From Acetobacterium sp. (GTDB taxonomy: Bacteria > Bacillota > Clostridia > Eubacteriales > Eubacteriaceae), in contig JAQUWM010000005.1 in assembly GCA_028692885.1 (NCBI GenBank), positions 1 to 64,000 of the forward strand: a DNA stretch of 64,000 nt, in the 5' to 3' direction. Shown here piece by piece: positions 7,457 through 14,060 of the stretch. Made by a program: the position numbers and the translations under genes. Position 1 is the first letter of the stretch. Each line of letters opens with the position of its first letter. Under the pieces are notes generated by a model. That model was not told the origin of the DNA. It searched no databases and worked only from the letters and a program-made list of their open reading frames with translations.

Positions 7457-7577
7457 CTTGACTCCTTGTTTTTTTGTGTAATGAAATTATAACACATCTG
7501 GAAATTCGATTATGTAAATTTTAGATTAAATTGTAAACTATTGCAAAATTCTGAAAACGTTATAGGCAAAATAATGA

Positions 7578-7606
7578 TTGTATTCTTTGTCCGATCTCCA
7601 TATAAT
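7578..7606 (+). promoter_or_regulatory. putative sigma-A promoter of an orphan intergenic transcript
   Basis: TTGTAT - 17 bp - TATAAT on the plus strand, not upstream of any plus-strand CDS. Confidence 0.55.
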
Positions 7607-7612
7607 GAATTC

Positions 7613-7700
7613 ATCACATATAATCCTTTATCTCTAAATGAATTACTCCCCTTTTTCATTTAGAAAAATGAGCTGTTTCTTCTGAAGCAGTTCTTTTTTT
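7613..7700 (+). ncRNA. candidate small RNA (C-rich loop), about 88 nt
   Basis: Plus promoter at 7578-7606; internal hairpin CTAAATGA(attactcccctttt)TCATTTAG (7634-7663); 10-bp terminator hairpin 7670-7693 plus T7 tract. Confidence 0.5.
7670..7700 (+). terminator. intrinsic terminator, plus strand
   Basis: GAGCTGTTTC-TTCT-GAAGCAGTTC followed by TTTTTTT; no plus-strand CDS upstream. Confidence 0.7.
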
Positions 7701-7711
7701 ATTTTATATTT

Positions 7712-7744
7712 AAAAAAGACTGACCATAATGGCCAGTCTTTTTT
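7712..7744 (-). terminator. intrinsic terminator downstream of 7759-11994 CDS (possibly bidirectional)
   Basis: AAAAAGACTGACC-ataat-GGCCAGTCTTTTTT. Confidence 0.7.
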
Positions 7745-7758
7745 GATTTTTTAAATTC

Positions 7759-10700
7759 CTAATTTTTCCGATCAAGATTTCGTTTGGCGGTTTCCATCAT
7801 CAATTTAATACGGTTTAACTGATTGACTTCGCTGGCACCCGGATCGTAGTCGATGGGGGCAATATTGGATAGCGGATATTTTTGGCGGATCGGTTTAATC
7901 ATCCCTTTTCCCATCACATGGTTAGGCAGACAGGCAAAGGGTTGGACGCAGACAATATTCTCTACGCCATCTTCGATTAACTCCATCATTTCGGCGGTTA
8001 AGAACCAGCCCTCCCCACCCTGATTACCAAGTGAAATTAGCTCTTGCGCCTTTTTAGCTTTTTTCTCAATGGTGGACGGGGCATGGAAGTGGCTGCTTTC
8101 TGCCAGTGCAATCTTCATATTCTTCCTTGAAAACTCTAATAACTTAATAATGAGTTTTGCCGACTTCATGGATCTTCTTTTGCCTGACAATTCCTCATAC
8201 TTAAAGACCTGGTTGTAACAGCAGTACAGGAAGAAATCCATTAAATCCGGCATGACCACCTCGGCACCTTCAGCTTCTAAGACGGCTTGGAGATTGTTAT
8301 TGGCCGTGGGATGGTATTTTACCAGAATTTCTCCCACGATCGCAACCTTGGGCAGTTTTTTATCGATTCGGGGCAGGGCATCAAATTCATTGACAATGGC
8401 CCGGACGTTTTCTTTAAAGTCACGGAGATTACCATTTTTCATCCCCGCTTTTATTTTTTTGCGCCAGTGTTGATATAGTTCTTCGGTTGATCCCGGATGC
8501 AGTTCATAGGGCCGGGTGCCGCTGACAACACGTTGCAGCAGATCGCCATAGACAATCCCCACTAACAGTCGGGTTAACAACGGCAAACTGAGCTTAAACC
8601 CGGGGTTCTTTTCGAGACCGATGGCACTGAGTGAAATGACCGGAATTTGGGACATCCCGGCTGATTCCAGGGCTTTTCTGATAAAAGCCACATAGTTAGA
8701 GGCGCGGCAGGGTCCCCCGGTCTGAGTCATTAATACCGATACATTATCGAGATCATATTTTCCCGATTTTAGCGCTGCCATAATCTGACCGGTGGTAATA
8801 ATCGTCGGATAGCAGGCATCGTTATTGACATAGGTTAAGCCTTCGTCAATAGCGGCATTATCGACGCTGGGCATGACCTCGATATGATAGCCATGTTTTT
8901 CCATGGCCTCTTCCAGAAAATCAAAATGGATCGGCGACATCTGCGGTGCCAGCAGCGTATGTTTCTTTTTCATTGCTTTGGTAAAGACCACCCGTTGTTT
9001 CATCGGCGTTGGTGCCACCACAATATTATTTTTCTCCCGTTCAATCATCGCCGCTTTTAGCGATCGCATCCGGATTCGGATGGCACCGAGATTATTGACT
9101 TCGTCAATTTTAATCAGGGTATAAATATTGCCATGGCTTTCCAGGATCTCCTGGGTTTGCTCCGAGGTCACCGCATCCAGTCCGCAGCCAAACGAAGTCA
9201 GCTGCACCAACTCGAGAAAATCATGCTGATTGACCACCTCCGCCGCCTTATATAAACGGCTATGATATTTCCACTGATCCAGAACCCGAAAGCGCTGTTC
9301 CTCTTTGGGATGGTAGAGATGGGCAATGGCATCTTCAGTGAGCACGGCCATGTCCAGACCGGTAATAATATGATCCAGACCATGATTGACCTCCGGATCG
9401 ATATGATAGGGCCGACCAGCCAAGACGATGCCTTTTTGCCCGGTTTCTTTTAAATAGGCAATCGTTTCTTCCCCTTTTTTCTCCATATCCCGACGGAAGG
9501 CTTCTTTCTCAGCAATAGCAGCATCCATGGCTTCAGTAATTTCCAGGCGATTGACGCCATAGACACCGAAAATTTCGGCCAACCGTTCTTCCAGCCGCTG
9601 ATCATTATCAAAGGGCAAAAACGGATTTAAGAAGGTAATGCCGGCTTTCTGGACATCATCCTGATTGTGTTTGATCGTTTCCGGATAAGACATAACAATT
9701 GGGCAATTATACCAGTTATCAACGTCATCAAATTCTTGTTCCTCATAAGGAATACAGGGATAGAAAATCAGACTGACCCCCTGTTCCAACAGTGCCTGAA
9801 TATGGCCATGGGCCAATTTGGCCGGATAGCAGACCGACTCTGACGGGATGCTCTCCATCCCTTTTTCATAAATCTTGCGATTGGATTCCGGGGATAACAC
9901 CACCCGATAGCCCAAATGGGTAAAAAAGGTATGCCAGAAGGGATAATTTTCATAGAGATTTAATACCCGGGGGATCCCAATACTGCCCCGGGGTGCCTCG
10001 CCTTCAGCCAGTGAGGGATAATTAAAAATCCGTTGATACTTATATTGATAGAGATTGGGCAGATCGGCATTTTTTTTGACATTCCCTTCGCCAATCTCGC
10101 AACGATTTCCGGTAATATGGCGGCTGCCGTCGTTAAAGCGGTTAATCGTCAGCAGACAATTATTACTGCAGCCGCCACAACGTTTGTGACCAACTTCGAC
10201 CTGGAAATCATCCAGCGCTTCTAAATCCAGAAGATTGCTGCGTTCCCCGGGGACATAGTTTTCCCGGGCGATTAACGCCGCACCAAAGGCTCCCATCAGG
10301 CCGGCAATATCCGGACGGATGACCTCTTTTTCAGTAATTTTTTCAAAGGTCCGCAGCACTGCCTGGTTGTTAAAGGTCCCCCCCTGGACAATGATATGCT
10401 CGCCCAATTCTTTGGGATTGTGGATCTTGATAACCTTCTGCAGGGCGTTCTTAATGACCGAATAAGACAGACCGGCCGAGATATCGCCGACTTCGGCGCC
10501 TTCTTTCTGAGACTGCTTGACCTTGGAATTCATAAAAACGGTGCAGCGGGTCCCCAGATCCACTGGGTTTTCCGCCATCAGTGCCGCTTCGACAAAGGCA
10601 TGCATGTCAAGATCCAATGATTTGGCAAAGGTTTCTAAGAATGAACCACAGCCGGAGGAACAGGCTTCATTGAGAATAATGCTGTCGATGGTGCCGTTTT

Positions 10701-11994
10701 TGATCTTCATGCACTTCATATCCTGACCGCCGATGTCGAGGATAAAATCGACATCGGGACAGAAATATTTGGCGCCCTTATAGTGGGCGATGGTTTCAAT
10801 TTCGCCAATGTCAATTTTTAAGGCTTTTTTAATCAGGCTTTCGCCATAGCCGGTAACGGTCGACTTACCAAGATAGACATCCGCCGGCAACGATCCGTAA
10901 ATTTCTTTGATTATTTTGATCGACTGAGCCAGGGGACTGCCCTCGTTGCCGCCATAGTAACTGTACAACAAAGCGCCGTCATTATCGATCACAACCGCCT
11001 TGGTAGTGGTGGAACCGACATCAATCCCTAAAAAGCAGCCGCCGCTATGATCTGCTAAGGCTTTTTTGACAACCTGATTTTTATCATGGCGTTCCCGAAA
11101 CTGCTTAAGCTCTGCCTCGTTTTTAAACAGCGGATCCAGCCGACCGACTTCATTTTCGGAAACCGAATCGAGGTTTTCAACCGCCGTAACCAGCTCTTTC
11201 AAATGCATTTTCGCTTCTTTTTCAGCCGAATAAGCCGCCCCGATGGCAACAAAGAGATTTGATTTATCAGGAAAAATAATCTGTTCTTTAGTCAGTTTCA
11301 GGGTTTCAATAAACCGTTGTCGCAGCTCTGACAAGAAATAAAGCGGCCCCCCTAAAAAAGCCACGTTCCCCCGGATCGGATGGCCGCAGGCCAGTCCACT
11401 AATAGTCTGGTTGACCACCGCCTGAAAAATCGAGGCGGCGATATCCGCTTTCTCAGCCCCTTCATTGATCAGCGGCTGAATGTCCGTTTTTGAAAAAACG
11501 CCACATCGTGAAGCGATTGGATAAATCATCGTGTGGGTTTTGGAGAGTTCGTTGAGTCCCTCAGCATCGGTTTTTAACAGCGTCGCCATCTGATCCACAA
11601 AAGCACCCGTTCCACCAGCACAGGTACCATTCATTCGTTGTTCAATGGTACCGGTGAAAAAGGTGATCTTGGCATCTTCGCCGCCCAACTCAATGGCGAC
11701 TTCAGTTCTGGGAATAACCCGATCGACAGCTAAAGTGCTGGCCACTACTTCCTGAACAAAGGGAATACCCAGCCATTGGGAGATCATCAGCCCACCGGAG
11801 CCAGTGACACAAACCCGCGCTTCCAAATCCCCCAGCTTTTGATAGGTTTCTTTTAAAAGATTAACGATGGTGACCTTGATGTTTGATAAATGACGCCGGT
11901 ATTCTTCATAGATGATTTCGTTTTGATCGTCAATAACCACTACTTTAATAGTTGTGGAGCCGATGTCAATGCCCATTTTATAATTGCTTTTCAT
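7759..11994 (-). CDS. tandem BadF/BcrA-type 2-hydroxyacyl-CoA dehydratase activase-related protein with C-terminal dehydratase-like region
   Basis: ORF 1411 aa; two ASKHA domains ([13 protein letters not shown] and [14 protein letters not shown]), [14 protein letters not shown] and [14 protein letters not shown]. Confidence 0.9.
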
Positions 11995-13691: not shown

Positions 13692-13717
13692 CTGATTTCC
13701 ACTGCTTTTATAAAGGT

Positions 13718-14060
13718 GATTTACTAAATCTATAAGCCGAGTTCTGTTTAAATAGTCATCTATCTTGATTTATTGTTGCCAATAAATTCTAGCGACCTAC
13801 CATAGGACAACGACGAGCAGCCGTCTTTCTAGGCCCGTTCTTGGTCTTGCTCCAGGTGGGGTTTACATAGCCGATGTGTCACCACACCGCTGGTGAGCTC
13901 TTACCTCACCCTTTCATCCTTACCATTGCTGGCGGTATACTTTCTGTTGCACTTGCCTTAGAGTCGCCTCCACCGGGTGTTACCCGGCACCATGCTCTTT
14001 GGAGCTCGGACTTTCCTCAACCAGATTACTCCGGGTGCGACTATCTGATTTACTAAATCA
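13718..14060 (-). ncRNA. rnpB: RNase P RNA component, type A-like
   Basis: Minus strand contains GAGGAAAGTCCGAGCTCC, GGTAAACCCC-like and GAACTCGGCTTATAG 3' signature; both ends carry GATTTAGTAAATC forming P1. Confidence 0.93.

Follow-up and report, generated by a model that had tools for sequence, protein, structure and literature searches.

A predicted small RNA with a C-rich loop, new to RNA databases and conserved in seven genera of one order

The small RNA (sRNA) RsaI is tied to CcpA. RosA, which has no C-rich regions, is also tied to CcpA, and RoxS is controlled by Rex; three sRNAs of Bacillus subtilis carry C-rich regions and have a similar predicted structure (PMC8216469). Translational control of acetogenesis is prominent in published transcriptome and ribosome-profiling work on Acetobacterium woodii and Eubacterium limosum, whose main text names no sRNA such as the one described here. 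For A. woodii, dRNA-seq on fructose and on H2+CO2 has been published (PMC8407422). The sRNA described here lies in a 64,000-nucleotide stretch of Acetobacterium sp. (contig JAQUWM010000005.1; hereafter the window), where an orphan plus-strand transcription unit had been noticed (the original prediction). This C-rich-loop sRNA of seven genera is new to RNA databases and conserved within one order.

Architecture of the locus

Table 1. Positions of the sRNA, its parts and neighbouring features in the window
Feature	Position	Strand	Remarks
Predicted sRNA, ~88 nt	7613-7700	+	Fold z = -7.19; homologues in 7 genera
Promoter: weak -35 TTGTAT (3/6) 7578-7583, 17-nt spacer, consensus -10 TATAAT 7601-7606	7578-7606	+	
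5' element AUCACAUAUAAUCCUUU, single-stranded	7613-7629	+	Near-invariant across families
Stem-loop 1: 9-bp stem 7634-7642/7655-7663, 12-nt loop UUACUCCCCUUU	7634-7663	+	Covarying stem
Intrinsic terminator: 10-bp stem, arms 7670-7679/7684-7693, tetraloop TTCT, T7 7694-7700	7670-7700	+	
cre-like palindrome TTGTAAACTATTGCAA	7531-7546	+	Centre -74.5; 11/13 to WTGNNARCGNWWWCAW
Second cre-like site CTGAAAACGTTATAGG	7551-7566	+	Centre -54.5; conserved through genus
1411-aa protein with two BadF/BcrAD ATPase stretches and DUF2229 (CoA-dehydratase activase type)	7759-11994	-	

The promoter and the terminator, with its tetraloop and T-run, are present where the original prediction had placed them, and the genes on both sides of the sRNA are indeed on the minus strand in the window (Table 1). 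A second hairpin had been described as 8 bp closing a 14-nt loop. Its stem core CTAAATGA/TCATTTAG is there (7634-7641/7656-7663), but an A-U pair (7642/7655), joined in the MFE fold by U7633-A7664, corrects these figures to 9-10 bp and a 12-nt loop. Of plus-strand ORFs, only short ones without an SD cross the sRNA, and none is conserved; an internal ATG would encode 15 aa, and this start codon is missing in Eubacterium and the other genera.

The 88-nt RNA has a fold energy of -23.8 kcal/mol, against -7.4 +/- 2.3 in shuffled sequences (z = -7.19), none of which folded as well (0/200). The promoter alone was not significant in a 5-kb scan (18 sites vs 11.2 expected), in which the sRNA promoter itself, with a -35 matching at only 3/6 positions, went unlisted; the same scan gave no enrichment of terminator-like sites around the sRNA. 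Past the sRNA terminator, a second strong inverted repeat, AAAAAAGACTGACCATAATGGCCAGTCTTTTTT (7708-7745), resembles a terminator for the minus-strand activase gene that could act in either direction. Elsewhere on the minus strand of the window, a tRNA cluster (177-735) and RNase P RNA (13717-14056) are ordinary Rfam matches.

Distribution, conservation and neighbourhood

The sRNA is found as a single copy in 18/19 Acetobacterium genomes. DNA similarity detected it in 17 of the 18 other Acetobacterium, and its core alone in other genera, Eubacterium among them. In G009, the homologue lies on the plus strand at C1:2829417. A covariance model (R1), built on the 5' tail and stem 1, matched 28 of the 67 genomes of the order, belonging to 7 of its 26 genera, with one copy per genome; the two matches in G054 both lie at contig ends and are probably a single locus. 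Ten carriers fall outside Acetobacterium, in six genera (Eubacterium, Alkalibacter and four more), all of the same order. A broader model (R2) recovered the same genomes and, in a phylum sample, matched 1/398, that one being the query. In a class sample of 391 genomes, the only scores came from members of the order and from one weak, chance-like match (G333, E=0.009) that has neither the loop nor the stem and was rejected as a distant homologue. An exact DNA pattern, searched in 84,980 named genomes, identified carriers in Acetobacterium, Eubacterium callanderi, Alkalibacter mobilis and Eubacteriaceae MAGs; its matches outside the order did not score with the covariance model and were likewise discarded. 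The class and phylum samples together comprise ~790 genomes, and in none outside the order was this sRNA found. Within it, the sRNA was undetected in G018, G065, G040, G056 and the small-genome genera of the family. G018 and G065 are ~80% complete; G040, of the genus Alkalibacter, is 98% complete on one contig and may have truly lost the sRNA or carry a diverged copy. In Rfam 15, no family reaches its gathering score for the sRNA or its homologues.

In alignment A2, 7 of the 9 stem-1 pairs are altered at both positions and 99.3% of cells are paired. Covariation of the stem is 0.449, against 0.142 +/- 0.031 when shuffled, and slid controls drop to 36-56% paired. Alignment A5 (24 sequences) has 98.8% of stem-1 cells paired, a figure that leans towards the model because A5 was fitted to it. 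Judging from these comparisons, the structure of stem 1 is under selection. The stem varies from CUAAAUGAA/UUCAUUUAG through CCUAUAGAA/UUCUAUAGG to CUUAUAGAA/UUCUAUAAG, with the loop core CCCCUUUU kept; this core, in which CCCC is constant, and the 5' end AUCACAUAUAA..CC are the near-fixed parts. The 5' element is AUCACAUAUAUAACCCC in most Alkalibacter-type members, and the 5' motif reads AACCCC in most f2 and Alkalibacter-type members, whose RNAs have an extra C-rich stretch (TCCCC) in the linker; Alkalibacter-type members carry three C-rich motifs (5' tail, loop and linker).

The original prediction had asked for covariation in both stems and for a conserved promoter and C-rich loop. Stem 1 provides the covariation, but changes in the terminator are one-sided within Acetobacterium; between genera, most members have it swapped for an unrelated sequence of the same form, and in L018 and L025 the T-run right after the hairpin is poor. 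The loop core is near-fixed across genera as foreseen, and the promoter keeps its -10 and 17-nt spacing in other genera, its -35 being weak. Because it is conserved and its stem covaries across genera, we consider the feature real, and almost certainly a genuine, uncatalogued sRNA family. This comparative evidence is decisive; it strongly supports the independent sRNA originally proposed and rules out a chance pairing of promoter and terminator.

The genes around the sRNA change between genera. In Acetobacterium an OmpR-family regulator/kinase pair is oriented away from it and the 1411-aa BadF/DUF2229 activase towards it. In Eubacterium it lies downstream of the same activase, co-directional with it and with no regulator/kinase pair, and the downstream gene differs among strains, one locus having a same-strand gene 350 nt downstream, past the terminator. 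G041 and G045 have different genes near the sRNA, with a split activase operon ~1 kb away, and in the Alkalibacter types it is flanked by an iron-alcohol-dehydrogenase-like gene and Asp23/nusB, one locus also carrying inserted genes. The gene nearest downstream is convergent in Acetobacterium and in the majority of the other loci read. In two genera of another family, a 145-aa protein adjoins the sRNA (L108:5899-6333 and L109:5488-5925); the one copy scanned had no Pfam match.

These arrangements bear on two other readings of the locus. The original prediction saw a possible link to the adjacent PhoB/PhoR-like system; on such a reading, this system would induce the RNA, or the RNA would regulate it or phosphate genes. 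In the Acetobacterium loci inspected, the pair does lie beside the RNA and points away from it, and the upstream region common to the sRNA and phoB is conserved in the genus; yet no such pair lies within 3.5 kb in Eubacterium, the f2 genera or the Alkalibacter-type genera. As Acetobacterium alone has phoBR beside the RNA and the neighbours change between genera, the link lacks support and reduces to a genus-level neighbourhood, and we judge this reading very unlikely. That the transcript is a cis-acting leader, a small ORF or mere terminator read-through would suit its shortness and the 15-aa ORF possible in Acetobacterium, but is highly improbable. The usually convergent downstream gene, variable even among Eubacterium strains, speaks against a leader or attenuator, the absence of the ATG outside Acetobacterium against a small protein, and the retention of the -10 and terminator against all of these. 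An autonomous sRNA is thus the reading that we retain: as is general for trans-acting sRNAs, it has its own promoter and terminator, no conserved ORF, no same-strand gene downstream apart from the one Eubacterium locus, and compensatory structural changes.

Upstream palindromes and catabolite control

Our promoter alignment placed palindromes upstream of the -35 in every genus, and we scored them over the 13 positions of the published cre consensus WTGNNARCGNWWWCAW (PMC3463425). A cre-like site of 10-13/13 is present in six of the seven genera: G054 scores 13/13, G041, G044, G048 and G051 12/13, and G045 10/13, while most Acetobacterium score 11-12/13 at -74.5 and 10-11/13 at -54.5. Eubacterium, scored by hand, is weak (9/13). 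The centres (-54.5, ~-65 and -74.5) are spaced in 10-bp steps, one helical turn. A shuffle test on one promoter per genus, using the older cre consensus WTGNAANCGNWNNCW, gave a Fisher p of 5.7e-6 for a hypothesis that was post hoc and to which Eubacterium adds nothing.

Every carrier encodes a strong CcpA-like protein (~250-346 bits, below the NCBI ccpA equivalog cut-off of 442) whose best PDB matches are CcpA, and HPr kinase is present in 9/9 carriers tested. In most Acetobacterium, the CcpA model picks up a single LacI-family homologue. Upstream of ccpA itself, we found no consistent cre-like site. A cre upstream of the -35 is activating in B. subtilis (ackA, pta, ilvB), with an effect that depends on helix face (PMC3463425), and TGTAAA/TTTACA sites are acceptable to clostridial CcpA as well (PMC5263246). 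The poor -35 and perfect -10 fit an activator-dependent promoter, and this weak -35 combined with cre-like operators upstream on one helix face makes activation by CcpA/HPr-Ser-P the most likely control. As a post hoc reading of sequence, activation of the sRNA by CcpA is plausible, with chances that we put at about even. In the window, the -75 site shares bases with the -35 of a promoter-like site for the divergent phoB, and in Acetobacterium it could serve phoB instead. The CcpA-repressed genes listed for B. subtilis include phoP (PMC3463425); by analogy, the overlap suggests that CcpA may also repress phoBR in Acetobacterium.

Target pairing and comparison with known sRNAs

The loop gave predicted duplexes of -16.6 kcal/mol with AAAAGGGGAGU (16S tail -8.4), -12.8 kcal/mol with AAAGGGGGAAU (16S tail -10.7) and -6.5 kcal/mol with AAGGAGGUGAU (16S tail -17.3). 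It therefore outpairs the 16S tail at G4 sites and not at AAGGAGGUGAU, and competition with the ribosome is expected at G4-type sites only. The original prediction had proposed targets at start codons through AAGGGGAG, for which we found no enriched or conserved site: the 15-nt loop complement (AAAAGGGGAGTAATT, <=2 mismatches) shows no excess over the reversed control. Its lone perfect match resembling an RBS, in G011, falls at a gene's 3' end and was set aside. Perfect sites of the SD type are infrequent (AAGGGGAGT...ATG, 0-5 per genome) and are not shared, and AAAAAGGGG...ATG is ~3 times commoner than the control, as expected of ribosome sites. Pattern searches for start-codon sites among the carriers returned no conserved target. 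A pairing with argH (11 bp plus 3, -17.1 kcal/mol) is common to several species but is only a weak candidate, because the site overlaps conserved sequence ending the preceding gene; a kdpD-like candidate is absent from the window's genome. The proposed action of the C-rich loop on SD regions in the manner of RsaE/RoxS is supported by the analogy and by the near-invariance of CCCCUUUU beside a covarying stem.

Two further explanations accept the sRNA and differ on its role or control. Instead of pairing with mRNA, it might sponge up another sRNA or use its C-rich loop to bind a protein. The lack of a conserved mRNA target and the precedents of RosA and RsaI (PMC8216469) would agree with this, but a C-rich loop with A/U flanks fits the SD-binding class and RosA itself has no C-rich regions (PMC8216469), so that we think this unlikely. 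A more serious possibility, although short of probable, is that a different regulator binds the palindrome, or that the palindrome is repressing, and that the signal is something other than carbon. The weak match in Eubacterium and the further LacI-family proteins of some carriers point this way; against it, most Acetobacterium have the single LacI-family homologue found with the CcpA model, and sites upstream of the -35 are normally activating (PMC3463425).

By analogy with known sRNAs, we hold a trans-acting, SD-blocking mode to be quite likely, and a free-standing, SD-blocking RNA, the core of our model, is nearly as likely. Sigma-A-type transcription would start near 7613 and stop at the terminator at 7700. 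The open loop of stem 1 would display CUCCCCUUU, and the 5' tail would expose a further C/U motif. Both would pair with the SD region of mRNAs bearing AAAGGGG-type ribosome sites and block initiation, G4 sites being selected over ordinary AGGAGG, where 16S rRNA is predicted to pair more strongly than the sRNA. A preferred carbon source, acting through CcpA/HPr-Ser-P, would switch the sRNA on. The model as a whole, a catabolite-activated sRNA of acetogens and relatives, induced by CcpA and silencing mRNAs with AAAGGGG-type SD sites, is more tentative, and we rate it somewhat below even. If true, it would place the decision to grow on sugar or on gas/one-carbon substrates under an additional, post-transcriptional control. 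A single-copy conserved sRNA with a predicted carbon switch offers a testable post-transcriptional regulator in industrial CO2-fixing bacteria, and would carry SD blocking by C-rich sRNAs beyond Bacillus and Staphylococcus, the cases known here, into a clostridial order via an unrelated family.

Among described sRNAs, the best Rfam score was for sbrA of Listeria (RF01489; 28.8 bits vs gathering 45), which is rejected as the family; it shares two hairpins and a similar layout, with agreement mostly in the terminator. FsrA, CsfG and IsrR resemble our sRNA in their C-rich regions for target pairing, but are under Fur or sigma-F/G control, and the sRNA has no Rfam match. RsaE/RoxS of Staphylococcus and Bacillus is also a short Gram-positive sRNA with C-rich single-stranded motifs that pair with mRNA and a terminator hairpin, and our sRNA is likewise predicted to hold a C-rich unpaired motif able to pair with the SD. 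Its different 5' end and layout set RsaE/RoxS apart, and membership in that family (RF01820) is rejected at 25.0 bits vs gathering 79. Moreover, RoxS is under the control of Rex and not of an upstream cre, whereas our sRNA has upstream cre-like sites. RosA and RsaI, in turn, are repressed by CcpA, whereas the sites described here lie upstream of the -35, an activating position.
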